From assembly GCF_005696555.1 (NCBI RefSeq), contig NZ_CP040005.1, forward strand, positions 2,108,001 to 2,172,000: a stretch of DNA of 64,000 bases. The letters run 5' to 3'. The translations under genes were made by a program, and so were the position numbers. Position 1 is the first letter of the stretch. Each line of letters opens with the position of its first letter. This document shows, piece after piece, positions 10,363-15,947 of the stretch. This stretch comes from Actinomyces sp. oral taxon 171 str. F0337. Lineage in GTDB: Bacteria; Actinomycetota; Actinomycetes; Actinomycetales; Actinomycetaceae. The notes below the pieces were generated by a model, which was given only the letters and a program-made list of their open reading frames with translations, was not told where the DNA came from and searched no databases.

Positions 10363-10728
10363 ATGCCAACCACCTCCAACAAGATGATCGGCGACTTCAG
10401 CGGCAAGCCGGCTTCGGCCGCCATGTACGCGGCAATCGAGTCCTACGCCCTCTCGCTCGGCTCCGTCACGAAGCACCTGACGGCCCAGGTGAGCTTCTCC
10501 GTCAACCGGAAGTTCCTGTGGGTCTGGGCCTATGAGCGGACGGGCGACGGCACCCTGTTCCTCAACGTGAGGCTCGATCGTCCCGTGGAGGATCCGCACT
10601 GCCACCACGTTGACCAGGTCAGTGCCAACAGGTGGAACCACCACGTCGTCGTCAAGACGATGGAGGCCGCGCAGAGTGACTGGCTCAGGGACCTCATTCG
10701 CGCCGGTCACGAGTTCGCCGCCCGGTGA
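10363..10728 (+). CDS. Small DUF5655-like protein of unknown function
   Basis: A 121-residue soluble protein opening MPTTSNKMIGDFSGKPASA. The body is an alpha/beta mix, with KHLTAQVSFSVNRKFLWVWAYERTG followed in turn by LFLNVRLDRPVEDP and a C-terminal helix (SDWLRDLIRAGHEFAAR). This pattern resembles the DUF5655 fold, in which a short domain predicts how a sample behaves in crystallised hypothetical proteins, and no function is known. There is no signal peptide or membrane span. The gene sits alone between the DUF418 gene and the Fic-tail repeat. Its codon use is like the host core. The domain assignment is from memory of the family pattern and is moderate. Confidence 0.6.
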   Translation: MPTTSNKMIGDFSGKPASAAMYAAIESYALSLGSVTKHLTAQVSFSVNRKFLWVWAYERTGDGTLFLNVRLDRPVEDPHCHHVDQVSANRWNHHVVVKTMEAAQSDWLRDLIRAGHEFAAR

Positions 10729-10732
10729 GCAC

Positions 10733-10856
10733 CCCTCACGGGTTCGAGAACCGCTCGTTCATTCCTCACCGGCGACGATCTCAACGAACCTGGCGAAGCG
10801 CGCGTAGTAGTCGTCCTGGAGGGACCTGAAGATCTCTCGCAGGAACCCCGGCTCCT
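10733..10856. repeat. 124-bp direct repeat, copy 1 (Fic gene 3' end)
   Basis: This segment matches 15178-15301 over 124 bp without gaps, with four mismatches by eye. It contains the last ~32 codons of the Fic gene on the minus strand and a little 3' flank. The two copies bracket the island at 10.86-15.18 kb in direct orientation. Confidence 0.9.
10759..10856 (-). pseudogene. Truncated Fic gene, C-terminal fragment
   Basis: Minus-strand reading gives EPGFLREIFRSLQDDYY and then ARFARFVEIVAGEE with a stop. It is identical to the intact Fic protein's C-terminus except for Ile for Thr after FLRE. Homology stops abruptly at 10856, where sequence related to an ISAs1-type transposase takes over. The catalytic HxFxDGNGR region is absent, so this is a dead fragment. 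It was created either by duplication or by disruption of a second Fic copy. Confidence 0.85.
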
Positions 10857-10879: not shown

Positions 10880-11171
10880 ATGAGGGTGTCTGGGCCGTCC
10901 CGGGTCTGCTCACTACCCATGGAGCAAGCCCAGCCCGAGCAGGTTGCCACCTGGGTCCAAGGGCACTGGGGAATCGAGAAGCAGCTCCACTGGATCAGAG
11001 ACGTCATCTTCGACGCGGACCGCCACCAGCTGCGCACCCGCAACGGCCCCGAGATCATAGCCGCACTACGCAACCTGACCACCCGGCCTCATCCGCCTCT
11101 TCCACACCACCAGATCCCTATCAAGACGACCCACACGAGCCATCAGACTACTCACCCAACCAATCCCCTAA
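10880..11171 (+). pseudogene. ISAs1-type (IS4-like) transposase, 3' remnant with a frameshift
   Basis: The frame from about 10898 reads SLPMEQAQPEQVATWV then QGHWGIEKQLHWIRDVIF, followed by RLRT-like ADRHQLRTRNGPEIIAALRNL. This is the conserved C-terminal block of ISAs1-family transposases, including the HWGIE(N/K) motif carrying the last acidic catalytic residue. After ALRNLTT, near 11083, the frame must shift to continue as GLIRLFHTTRSLSRRP, ending at a TAA at 11169-11171. The N-terminal three quarters, including the other catalytic residues, is missing, so the element is dead. It forms the left shoulder of the low-GC RNA-repair gene. Confidence 0.8.
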
Positions 11172-11255
11172 ACCGAGTTTACCGACCTCTTGTGGAGGAC
11201 GGCGTGTCGTTTTCATGCTTCTATTATACTCGGAAGGGCAAGGTTGGTAATGCGG

Positions 11256-13436
11256 CTATACGGCTTTTTCTTGCTCACGTTGCCAGCGGTGACGAACATC
11301 GATAATAGACATCTGAGCCAACACGTCAGTAGGGATGCCCTGCATATAGGCAATGACACGCGCTTCGTACTCAGGATATGGGTAGGCAGCGGCACGCTTT
11401 GGCCTGCGCCCCTCCTTAAGTCCATCAAGCACACCACGCATCCGCTTCCAAAATGAGTAATAATCGAGTTTGGTTTTGACCTGCCAATGCTGAGCATCCT
11501 CTATTACAAAGCCCTCGATTGGTACACCGTCATACAAATAGTCAAGCCCCTGCACCTGCTCATACCAGGCCGCAAACTCCTCCCACGTTTGGAACGTCGC
11601 CGCAAGCCGCTTGGTTTCCATACCAAGCATAGCCGCAAATCGCTCACGCTCAACTTGGTCAACAGCGGCAAATTCCGCCTGGCGATGCACTATGTCGAGC
11701 AAAACAATCCGGTCTTGTACATACTCAATGATGTGTGGATCCTCTGTCGGAAGCATTACTTCACAGACCAAACATGCATTATGCTCGGCAAGATACTGAC
11801 GAATCACATCAACATGCTCGCCATAGCTCTGTAAAAACAGATGGCGAAACCACTCGGCAAATTCACTCTCCGTTGTTGTTTTCGACGCAAAGACGAGGTC
11901 ACCCAGTGTCGCATCATAGCCTACCAAGCCAAGATAACCATTCTCCTTCACCCAGGCGCGCACTGGAAAGACAAGTTGATCTTTGAGCGCAGAAAATTCA
12001 GTTTCTCGTCGCTCACCAATATTGAAGAACTTGTCATAGGCGCGAATTACAATCTCGTTCGTCAGTGTATTCATGAATAGTCCACGAGCTCGCACTGTTT
12101 GCGCTGTCCATTTTTTGTCATAAAACACCTTTGGTTTAAAGTGAAATGAGCTAATATTGCCCGGCAGTGACCGCTCACCAATCAGTTTATTGGCACGCAG
12201 ACCATGGATGAGCGGTGCGTTTTCCGGATGGAGGATGCCTTCAGCCGACTGGTTGCTTACCTCAACGACCGACCAACCCTCCTCGGCAAGCTGAGCAACC
12301 CGTAGCGTGCCACCAAACTCCACTTTGCCCTCGAGATTAAAGCACCGCTGATTATACTGCGCTGGATAATTCTGAGCGTTGCGATGGCCATGCACTTGAT
12401 AGACATTATCAGGGGTATGGGCAACAAAAGCATCGTCAATAGCACCAACCTGCTCATAGCGTCCCACACCACGAATATACTGCTGGCTGGCAAGCAGCAA
12501 AGGACTCTCCGGTAGATTACTCATTCCCGCATGACTCACAAATACTTGTTTATCATTCCATGTGTAGTAGAGAAAATCTTGCATGGAGTTCATCAAGCGA
12601 CTGACAACACGCTTGTCTATATTGGCACGCTCTAACTGCGCTCGAGTTCGGCCATTAAACTCTCGCGCTCTTATAGGTTGGCGATTAAGCCACTGCCAAA
12701 TATAGCCATCATGGTTACCCTCAATAAACGTCACATTCGGCCTGTCGACAAAATTATCGCACACATACTGCAATACTTCTGCATTCTCTGTGCCACGATC
12801 GAGCAGATCACCTGTAAAGATATAATAATCGTGCTCGACATAGGGGTGCTGCTCAAAATATTCACGCAGTGGCGTATAGCATCCTTGGATATCACCAATA
12901 TGGTGAATATGCTCATACTGACTCAAATTGATCGGTTGCTGATATGACGTGATAATCTCTTTTACTTCCGCTGGCTGTATGACAGTGTATCGTTTTGGTA
13001 TAGCACACGTGGAGAGGCGAGCGTGCATCTTCTCGAGAACTGCATCATCGACTACCTTATGTAGTGCACGCTGACGATTACGCTCCAGACAAACCTTGAG
13101 AGGCACATCCGCAAAATCTATAACGTACAGCTTGTAGCGATACTTTCGCGCAAGCCGAGCATACTGCTGAAAGTACGAGCTCGTTGTATGTGTTGCATCA
13201 ACCACAATGAACTCACCACGAGCCATCCGCATGTCAAGCAACTCATGAAGTTGTTGCCACACCCGCCGATCATCCCGATATGGCATAACGATACGTCCTG
13301 CGTCATTCATCACCGGGCCACTATATGCTAGGCGCAGAGCATCAGGAGATAGTGTATATGGGTCAAGTCCAGCAGATTGCAAAAAGGCACTTTTGCCAGA
13401 CCCAGGAATTCCACGTGTAATAAAAAGGTGGCGCAT
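11256..13436 (-). CDS. Three-domain RNA repair enzyme: polynucleotide kinase, metallophosphoesterase, T4 Rnl1-like RNA ligase
   Basis: A 726-residue protein that appears to hold a whole RNA end-healing and sealing pathway. Residues 1-165 are a P-loop polynucleotide 5'-kinase (GIPGSGKS 9-16; DATHTT 80-85; ERNRQR 118-123). Residues 176-395 are a calcineurin-like phosphoesterase (GDIQG 181-185, GDLLDRG 209-215, GNHDG 240-244, SHAG 301-304, HGH 349-351), a candidate 2',3'-phosphatase. Residues ~425-726 resemble T4 RNA ligase 1. They contain ARGLFMN, then YDKFFNIGE, the nucleotidyl motif I KENG (Lys497), motif IV EGFVIE (641-646) and motif V KTK (654-656). The ATG at 13436 has a good purine-rich ribosome site (AGGGAG). 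Codons are AT-rich and unlike all neighbours, and broken transposases flank it. It resembles bacterial Pnkp in layout but has an Rnl1-type ligase. Likely role: repair of tRNA or other RNA cleaved by anticodon nucleases or toxins. Activity is inferred from motifs. Confidence 0.85.
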   Translation of the reverse strand: MRHLFITRGIPGSGKSAFLQSAGLDPYTLSPDALRLAYSGPVMNDAGRIVMPYRDDRRVWQQLHELLDMRMARGEFIVVDATHTTSSYFQQYARLARKYRYKLYVIDFADVPLKVCLERNRQRALHKVVDDAVLEKMHARLSTCAIPKRYTVIQPAEVKEIITSYQQPINLSQYEHIHHIGDIQGCYTPLREYFEQHPYVEHDYYIFTGDLLDRGTENAEVLQYVCDNFVDRPNVTFIEGNHDGYIWQWLNRQPIRAREFNGRTRAQLERANIDKRVVSRLMNSMQDFLYYTWNDKQVFVSHAGMSNLPESPLLLASQQYIRGVGRYEQVGAIDDAFVAHTPDNVYQVHGHRNAQNYPAQYNQRCFNLEGKVEFGGTLRVAQLAEEGWSVVEVSNQSAEGILHPENAPLIHGLRANKLIGERSLPGNISSFHFKPKVFYDKKWTAQTVRARGLFMNTLTNEIVIRAYDKFFNIGERRETEFSALKDQLVFPVRAWVKENGYLGLVGYDATLGDLVFASKTTTESEFAEWFRHLFLQSYGEHVDVIRQYLAEHNACLVCEVMLPTEDPHIIEYVQDRIVLLDIVHRQAEFAAVDQVERERFAAMLGMETKRLAATFQTWEEFAAWYEQVQGLDYLYDGVPIEGFVIEDAQHWQVKTKLDYYSFWKRMRGVLDGLKEGRRPKRAAAYPYPEYEARVIAYMQGIPTDVLAQMSIIDVRHRWQREQEKAV

Positions 13437-13485
13437 ATTCTCTCCCTTTGTAGTGTCGTTTTCGAGATTTCACTTAACTACACCT

Positions 13486-15157: not shown

Positions 15158-15177
15158 GCGTCATGAGTCAGGAGCGC

Positions 15178-15301
15178 CCCTCACGGGTTCGAGGACCGCT
15201 CGTTCATTCCTCACCGGCGACGATCTCAACGAACCTGGCGAAGCGCGCGTAGTAGTCGTCCTGGAGGGACCGGAAGGTCTCCCGCAGGAACCCCGGCTCC
15301 T
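15178..15301. repeat. 124-bp direct repeat, copy 2 (3' end of intact Fic gene)
   Basis: Partner of the repeat at 10733-10856, offset by exactly 4445 bp. This copy is continuous with the complete Fic gene, so it is the original locus and the left copy is the duplicate. Confidence 0.9.
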
Positions 15302-15947
15302 GCTCGTACTCGCTCAGGCCGCGGTAGTAGAAAGCCTTGGTCGAGTCGAGCACGATGAACGGCATGATGCCGTTGTCCAGGCACTGCTGGAACATGAGGA
15401 TCCGCCCCACCCGACCGTTGCCGTCCTGGAAGGGGTGGATGACCTCAAAGCGGTAGTGGAAGTCGGCGATGTCATCAAAGGTCATGCTCGCCGGGGTGCG
15501 CGCGATGAGATCGTCGATGGCGAGCGCGACATGTTCGGGCGCCACGGTCTCGCGTCCGCCCACCACGTTGGGAAGGCGCTTGTAGTCCCCGACGGCGAAC
15601 GAAGGCCGCCGTGCATCTGCGGTCCCCTGTTTGAGAACTCGGTGGTAGTCCTTCATCGTCTCAGCGGTGATCGGCTCGCCGAGGCGGTCGATCATCTCAT
15701 CGAACAGCTCGAAGGAGTTGACCGCCTCCACGACGTCATCAACGAGGACGTTCTCTCCCGTAATGGTGCGGGTCTCGTAAATGAACCGGGTCTGCTCCTC
15801 ATCGAGCCGGCTGCCCTCGATACGGTTGGAGTTGTACGCCATGAGCACCTGGTTGAGGTGGTACAAGCCGCCCTTCATCCGCGTGCGGCGCTGATCGCGC
15901 AGGGTCCGGGCGAAGCTGCGGGCGTCAATGGCGTACTCGTCGGTCAT
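15204..15947 (-). CDS. Fic family protein (predicted AMP/NMP-transferase) with N-terminal inhibitory motif
   Basis: Complete 247-residue Fic-domain protein. Fic enzymes transfer AMP or other phosphate-containing groups from nucleotides onto hydroxyls of target proteins. The catalytic loop HPFQDGNGRVGR starts at His171 and is intact. The N-terminal helix carries SNRIEG (Ser40 to Gly45), which matches the (S/T)xxxE(G/N) inhibitory motif. This makes it a class II (self-inhibited) Fic that needs no separate antitoxin. The flap (PSFAVGDYKRLPN) is in the usual place before the loop. The ATG at 15947 is preceded by GAAGGAG. A perfect palindrome lies 14 bp upstream of the start, suggesting tight or autogenous regulation. 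Its 3' end is duplicated at 10.7 kb. It diverges from mnmA. Substrate unknown. Confidence 0.92.
   Translation of the reverse strand: MTDEYAIDARSFARTLRDQRRTRMKGGLYHLNQVLMAYNSNRIEGSRLDEEQTRFIYETRTITGENVLVDDVVEAVNSFELFDEMIDRLGEPITAETMKDYHRVLKQGTADARRPSFAVGDYKRLPNVVGGRETVAPEHVALAIDDLIARTPASMTFDDIADFHYRFEVIHPFQDGNGRVGRILMFQQCLDNGIMPFIVLDSTKAFYYRGLSEYEQEPGFLRETFRSLQDDYYARFARFVEIVAGEE

Follow-up and report, generated by a model that had tools for sequence, protein, structure and literature searches.

The kinase-phosphoesterase-ligase gene and its protein

A 64,000-nucleotide stretch of Actinomyces sp. oral taxon 171 str. F0337 (assembly GCF_005696555.1, contig NZ_CP040005.1, positions 2,108,001 to 2,172,000), which we call the window, carries on its minus strand a gene whose predicted product unites the domains of a polynucleotide kinase, a phosphoesterase and an RNA ligase. 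We refer to this kinase-phosphoesterase-ligase protein as KPL. Its reading frame starts with ATG and runs for 726 codons with zero internal stops, and the gene and its domains were delineated from the open reading frame (ORF), Pfam profiles, alignment and a structure model as follows.

11256..13436, minus strand: KPL gene, kinase-phosphoesterase-ligase fusion of 726 amino acids (aa)
12942..13436, minus strand: 5′-OH polynucleotide kinase domain, residues 1-165, with the Walker A motif GIPGSGKS
12252..12941, minus strand: metallophosphoesterase domain, residues ~166-395, with motif I GDIQG (Gln184) and Glu369
11265..12239, minus strand: ATP-dependent RNA ligase domain, residues 400-724, a nucleotidyltransferase followed by a Trl1-type C-terminal helical domain
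11946..11948, minus strand: codon of Lys497, the motif I nucleophile (KENG)

The first-pass annotation of this DNA, made from the sequence alone, had read the three functions in one 726-residue chain and had suggested a Pfam search of each segment. That search confirmed the reading, with AAA_33 on residues 4-142 (E 2e-21), Metallophos on residues 177-355 (E 2.1e-13) and RNA_lig_T4_1 (PF09511) on residues 450-660 (E 3.6e-37, 128.8 bits against a gathering score of 28.3) all scoring above their gathering thresholds. Every motif named in the annotation is present, namely GIPGSGKS in the kinase, GDIQG, GDLLDRG, GNHDG, SHAG and HGH in the phosphoesterase, and KENG (with Lys497), EGFVIE and KTK in the ligase. 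The profile match, the KxxG lysine nucleophile and motifs IV and V together place KPL in the RNA_lig_T4_1 superfamily, and a chance origin of the domain trio is excluded on sequence grounds.

The catalytic residues are strongly conserved. A family alignment of 29 sequences, among them the KPL of the window and relatives as distant as 39% identity, shows invariant residues in all three domains: in the kinase P-loop G14 and K15, in the phosphoesterase D182, D210, R214, N241, H242, H302 and H351, and in the ligase K497, N499, G500, E641, G642 and K656. The catalytic motifs are also kept, with small changes, in seven aligned Actinomyces KPLs that are about 30% identical to the protein of the window. 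The structure model of KPL has a pLDDT of 91.9, and PADLOC gave a weak partial match at most on the protein. A self-contained enzyme for healing and sealing RNA ends, as the annotation had it, stands as the best reading of the sequence, the structure model and the residue conservation, and it is very likely that a single polypeptide combines all three predicted activities.

The ligase, the 3′ end and the proposed repair reactions

The ligase had at first been likened to T4 Rnl1, with a structure comparison proposed as a check. In both sequence and structure comparisons fungal Trl1 came out closer, sharing its C-terminal domain with KPL, which argues against T4 Rnl1 as the nearest ligase. The three segments of the KPL model match the kinase of Clostridium thermocellum Pnkp, the phosphatase of the same protein and the ligase of fungal Trl1, whereas T4 Rnl1 aligns to residues 405-666 only. 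In the crystal structure of Chaetomium thermophilum Trl1, according to the available text of PMC6592678, a sulfate near the active site is held by Arg334 and Arg337, together with His227 and Asn150. Counting positions in a HMMER alignment, we found that Trl1 Lys148, Asn150, His227 and Arg337 fall on KPL Lys497, Asn499, His568 and Arg667, and that Arg334 falls on Lys664, an exchange of arginine for lysine. Asn499, His568 and Arg667 are invariant among the 29 aligned sequences, as is Lys497, whose position on Trl1 Lys148 bears out its earlier assignment to motif I. A fold match that includes the C-terminal domain, together with these phosphate-pocket residues, makes the ligase of KPL one of the Trl1 type.

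The assembly of domains in KPL differs from that of each repair system with which we compared it. Trl1 has the order ligase-kinase-phosphodiesterase and ends in a 2H phosphodiesterase, whereas KPL has the order kinase-phosphoesterase-ligase, a kinase of the bacterial Pnkp type, and a calcineurin-type phosphoesterase to which 3′-end healing is assigned. Bacterial Pnkp of the C. thermocellum type, which has Hen1 as partner, lacks the Trl1-like RNA ligase that KPL carries instead. The NCBIfam model for Pnkp, TIGR04075, covered residues 7-307 of KPL only and did not pass as a full-length match, its 76.7 bits falling below the cut-off of 750; in the window's genome nothing matched it at E<=1e-40. 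T4 Pnkp and Rnl1 share with KPL the same three activities, which are predicted for KPL, and the RNA_lig_T4_1 family, but they are two proteins, and the T4 phosphatase comes from another superfamily than that of KPL. Like KPL, the Rnl/Pnkp of the baculovirus AcNPV is a single chain that combines a ligase, a kinase and a phosphatase, but its ligase comes first and its phosphatase is of the T4 type. The available part of PMC4411300 describes a role of the T4 pair in the repair of damaged RNA, places the phosphatases of T4-like Pnkp1 and of Pnkp-Hen1 in different superfamilies, and presents the Pnkp1-Rnl-Hen1 complex of Capnocytophaga gingivalis as a bacterial RNA repair machinery with kinase, phosphatase and ligase. 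That complex consists of three proteins, among them a T4-type phosphatase and the Hen1 methyltransferase, whereas KPL is one chain.

We propose that KPL would repair RNA in three steps. The metallophosphoesterase would open the 2′,3′-cyclic phosphate made by a metal-independent ribonuclease and then strip the phosphate; the P-loop kinase would phosphorylate the 5′-OH; and ATP would adenylate Lys497, from which AMP would be handed to the 5′-phosphate before the ligase seals the break. RtcB was found in none of seven genomes searched, the window's own genome included, by a search whose control was positive in 9 of 14 known genomes, and KPL therefore would not duplicate an RtcB route there. This widens the earlier remark that no RtcB gene lies beside KPL. 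Hen1 was absent from the seven neighbouring ORFs scanned, a genome-wide search for it not having been made.

The healing of the 3′ end deserves closer attention. Alignment with six bacterial Pnkp proteins places Gln184 of KPL (GDIQG) at the Pnkp histidine (GD-V/I-HG) and Glu369 at the Pnkp aspartate (DTG), so that KPL differs from these six at two active-site positions. In C. thermocellum Pnkp this histidine is reportedly one determinant of whether 2′-OH or 2′-PO4 ends are made, and its change to aspartate is said to give a 2′-PO4 end that is sealed by yeast Trl1. Gln184 could therefore point to a fungal-like route in which the phosphoesterase stops at the 2′-PO4 end and the Trl1-like ligase requires that phosphate, and the retention in KPL of the sulfate-binding pocket seen in the Trl1 crystal (Asn499, His568, Lys664 and Arg667) is in line with such a route. 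Fungal ligation leaves a 2′-PO4, as stated in the accessible portion of PMC6333775. Against this route, histidine at position 184 is common in the family. It is found in 53 of the 120 listed relatives (P0001-P0120; Gln in 65, motif absent in two) and in 73 of 80 viral loci (Gln in five, motif absent in two), the latter being the 80 retained of 171 confirmed viral relatives (L016-L095), some of them near-duplicates. The first phosphoesterase motif of the seven aligned Actinomyces KPLs reads GDVQS in six and GDVHS in one. A 2′-PO4 scar would stay, since the 2′-phosphotransferase KptA/Tpt1 (PF01885) was found in none of seven KPL-bearing genomes by a search whose control was positive in 3 of 14 known genomes. 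We regard the 2′-phosphate route as unlikely and favour full healing to 2′-OH/3′-OH, because the search of the seven genomes did not find KptA, without which the scar could not be removed; that KPL heals fully in this manner is offered as a testable guess.

Spread of the family and the likely substrate

Among 7997 candidates scored for relatedness to KPL, 2157 proteins matched at E<=1e-10, and all of the 120 listed relatives carry the three Pfam domains. In viral contigs, 171 relatives were confirmed among 217 stretches. These numbers rule out that the fusion is rare, and the part of the first-pass annotation that treated it as something unusual has to be given up. Judged by these matches, the architecture is common in bacteria and phages, and what is unusual is the origin of the copy in the window. 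A literature search, with most subscription papers outside its coverage, found no biochemical study of this architecture and no title on it.

Large phages often carry tRNAs. Among viral records with KPL relatives, 23 of 26 have tRNA genes, a count to which no matched background was set, and a tRNA gene was present in the flanking DNA retrieved, at most 8 kb, at 14 of the 30 viral loci scanned out of the 80. The association between viral KPLs and tRNA genes is suggestive only. No neighbour is common to more than 14 of the 80 viral loci. Phage RNA ligases have been described, in the available parts of PMC7824862 and PMC9503650, as counter-measures against host tRNA cleavage.

The likely substrates of KPL would be tRNAs whose anticodon loop has been cleaved by a toxin or an anti-phage nuclease, and we consider such a target of tRNA or ribotoxin damage plausible. 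Pnkp-type kinases and phosphatases are able to act on DNA ends, which would suit broken DNA, or another RNA, as the main substrate. However, family and fold both class the ligase of KPL with the RNA ligases, nearest to a tRNA ligase, and the viral relatives often lie near tRNA genes (again with no background control), so that a main substrate other than cleaved tRNA appears improbable. We infer the reactions of KPL and its substrate, as well as its expression in Actinomyces, its benefit and the vehicle of its transfer. If the proposed function is right, a widespread family would combine the healing domains of bacterial Pnkp with a tRNA ligase of the fungal type in one chain, also in viral contigs with tRNA genes, and KPL would represent a compact repair and counter-defence module as well as a possible RNA-joining reagent.

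The neighbours of the Actinomyces KPLs include a helicase/nuclease, a CRISPR locus and housekeeping genes, with no partner common to them. In another Actinomyces (G012, L129 1531-9825), the type I-G CRISPR genes Cas7g, Cas56g and Cas3g, identified by PADLOC, are immediately preceded on their own strand by a divergent KPL.

Origin and borders of the locus

The KPL gene stands out from its surroundings in composition. Its GC content is 0.48 and its GC at third codon positions (GC3) is 0.47, against a GC3 of 0.80-0.89 in eight neighbouring host genes. The mnmA gene nearby points to Actinomyces as the host genus, its named matches including A. viscosus at 84% and a partial protein of A. oris at 92%. 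A scan of genome contigs aimed at close relatives returned a sole match, in a Candidatus Saccharibacteria metagenome-assembled genome (MAG), with a protein 91% identical and a GC3 of 0.45 in its gene; this locus, on contig JAUMZP010000001.1, is referred to as L002. Within the genus, the window's genome is the sole carrier of the close KPL type among 49: a close copy was found in none of the 48 others, where the best match is 30% identical, and a deeply divergent KPL type is present in nine of them. We built a tree of 112 rows, comprising the window, three Saccharibacteria loci, L003-L009, 75 of the 120 listed proteins and 26 viral loci, namely those with a number divisible by three. L003-L009 represent seven of the nine other Actinomyces genomes with a match, the remaining two having given no locus, and the tree was made by a quick method with SH-aLRT support only. 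In this tree the window groups with the L002 copy and P0001 at a support of 100, a larger group of 38 rows around the window (support 98) takes in every one of the three Saccharibacteria copies, and the seven Actinomyces-type KPLs are separated from the window by branches of support 100. On the genus survey, the contrast in GC3 and the tree, vertical inheritance within Actinomyces was rejected. P0004, labelled Verrucomicrobiae in NCBI, is identical to the L011 protein from a genome of the same class as the Saccharibacteria MAG, and its label is probably wrong.

The nucleotide homology to the Saccharibacteria contig extends past the KPL ORF on both sides, and the segment and its borders contain the following features.

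11207..13480, no strand assigned: segment of Saccharibacteria origin, identical to L002 10229-7956 (JAUMZP010000001.1) at 90.1% of nucleotides in an alignment of 2275 columns
11207..11216, minus strand: beginning, start codon included, of the Saccharibacteria gene that follows on the 3′ side of KPL (a 330-aa ORF in L002), cut after about three codons
13478..13539, minus strand: 62 nt, 84% identical to L002 13351-13412 just upstream of a putative radC
10899..11187, plus strand: DDE_Tnp_1 transposase or insertion sequence (IS) remnant at the left border, with a 75% match elsewhere in the same genome
13551..15172, plus strand: broken IS with a DDE_Tnp_1-type transposase at the right border (Pfam 22.5 bits, just under the cut-off of 23)
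15204..15947, minus strand: Fic-domain protein, with its 3′ end duplicated at 10727-10856 (130 bp, 96%)

The placement in the tree with Saccharibacteria and the presence of donor flanking DNA both point to a Saccharibacteria origin, and KPL was very probably imported recently from that lineage, which the first-pass annotation had missed. The 62-nt stretch belongs upstream of the L002 ORF 13424-14086, which we take to be radC, a label with no family search behind it. It occurs once in the Saccharibacteria genome, where a different part of the query gave a further match of 19 nt, and its outermost dozen bases match less well, which leaves its outer edge uncertain. In the Saccharibacteria contig this stretch stands 3 kb beyond KPL, and its position before KPL in the window therefore indicates that the gene order of the donor differed from that of the sequenced relative, which would imply a rearrangement of the KPL locus within Saccharibacteria.

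Insertion-sequence DNA abuts the foreign stretch at both ends, where assemblies can err, and Saccharibacteria live attached to Actinomyces (PMC9040727, available text), so that co-isolation is conceivable and the segment could in principle be an assembly chimera or contamination with no true chromosomal insertion. However, the assembly consists of one 3.10-Mb contig with 99.98% completeness and 0.84% contamination, and the flanking IS remnants have only short or diverged matches elsewhere among the matches listed, which leaves few sites for misassembly. The fragment itself is 2.3 kb long, is cut at both ends and differs by 10% from the known Saccharibacteria copy. Taken together, these data make an artefact very improbable. 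The two IS searches of the window's genome covered 40 of the 180 and 40 of the 46 candidates from the first look, and that of the genus covered six per genome; long copies of the right IS in other Actinomyces start mostly at the equivalents of 13551, 13558 or 13565 and end near 15172.

Cultured Saccharibacteria are obligate episymbionts on Actinobacteria, and HMT-957 strains live mainly on Actinomyces, as stated in the accessible part of PMC9040727. Because Saccharibacteria are epibionts of Actinomyces, gene flow from epibiont to host is likely on the present sequence evidence: a fragment of about 2.3 kb with KPL and its upstream region would have passed to Actinomyces, where it is now bounded by host IS remnants. 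The transfer may have taken place by uptake of DNA from attached cells or by a shared phage, and the window favours neither. In the available text of PMC10746230, seven of nine putative Saccharibacteria phages that are also targeted by other bacteria are targeted by Actinobacteria, which include A. oris, A. naeslundii and A. viscosus. The literature search, which took in the available portions of PMC9040727 and PMC10746230 and had most subscription papers outside its coverage, found no report of a transfer from Saccharibacteria to Actinomyces. If the transfer is real, an intact gene from an epibiont candidate phylum in the host genus would be a direct trace of DNA exchange between the partners.

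We hold it to be highly probable that KPL is a trifunctional repair enzyme for RNA with 2′,3′-cyclic-phosphate and 5′-OH ends that was acquired recently from a Saccharibacteria lineage on a fragment of about 2.3 kb. Several observations weigh against this assignment. The pTM of the structure model is 0.60, which leaves the packing of the domains uncertain; with Gln184 and Glu369 in place of the Pnkp residues, the product of the phosphoesterase could differ; and the viral association with tRNA genes has no background control. KPL occurs in 3 of 392 genomes searched in the MAG's class, the MAG included, and is accessory there. This rarity leaves the exact donor unassigned, and the donor takes its label from MAG records. 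P0011, a 58% relative labelled Actinomycetaceae, makes an older exchange in the other direction possible. Finally, the window branch has 43 unique residues, as compared with 19 for the Saccharibacteria copy and 10 for P0001. At these 43 positions an outgroup sides with the other two at 25 and with the window at 12, and the excess of changes fits weaker constraint since the transfer.

Such an excess also speaks for KPL being a passenger that came with the fragment, is not usefully expressed and is decaying. In addition, the locus is crowded with IS remnants, its composition is unadapted to the host, and among the sites listed by a promoter scan none lay before the KPL gene, although a TATAAA-like box can be seen there by eye. 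On the other hand, the 726-codon frame is intact and all catalytic residues are kept. The pairwise dN/dS between the window and the Saccharibacteria copy is 0.105 and is alike across the three domains (0.11, 0.12 and 0.09), although most of this history may predate the transfer. The upstream region of KPL was transferred along with the gene. We consider a decaying passenger doubtful, although it is the most serious of the alternatives, and retain a functional repair enzyme as the preferred interpretation.

A more far-reaching proposal is that Actinomyces uses the epibiont-derived KPL as immunity, re-sealing tRNAs cut in the conflict between epibiont, host and phage, so that a protection gene of the parasite would now shield the host lineage. 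We regard this as a long shot; if it were true, phages common to both partners would be a natural carrier.

Two further genes lie close to the borders. The Fic-domain protein at 15204-15947 (minus strand) matches the PADLOC candidate defence family PDC-S04 (7e-95) and, less strongly, SoFic (3.9e-23), and the duplicate of its 3′ end at 10727-10856 lies on the opposite side of the Saccharibacteria fragment. A DUF5655 protein is encoded at 10363-10728 of the window, near the left IS remnant.

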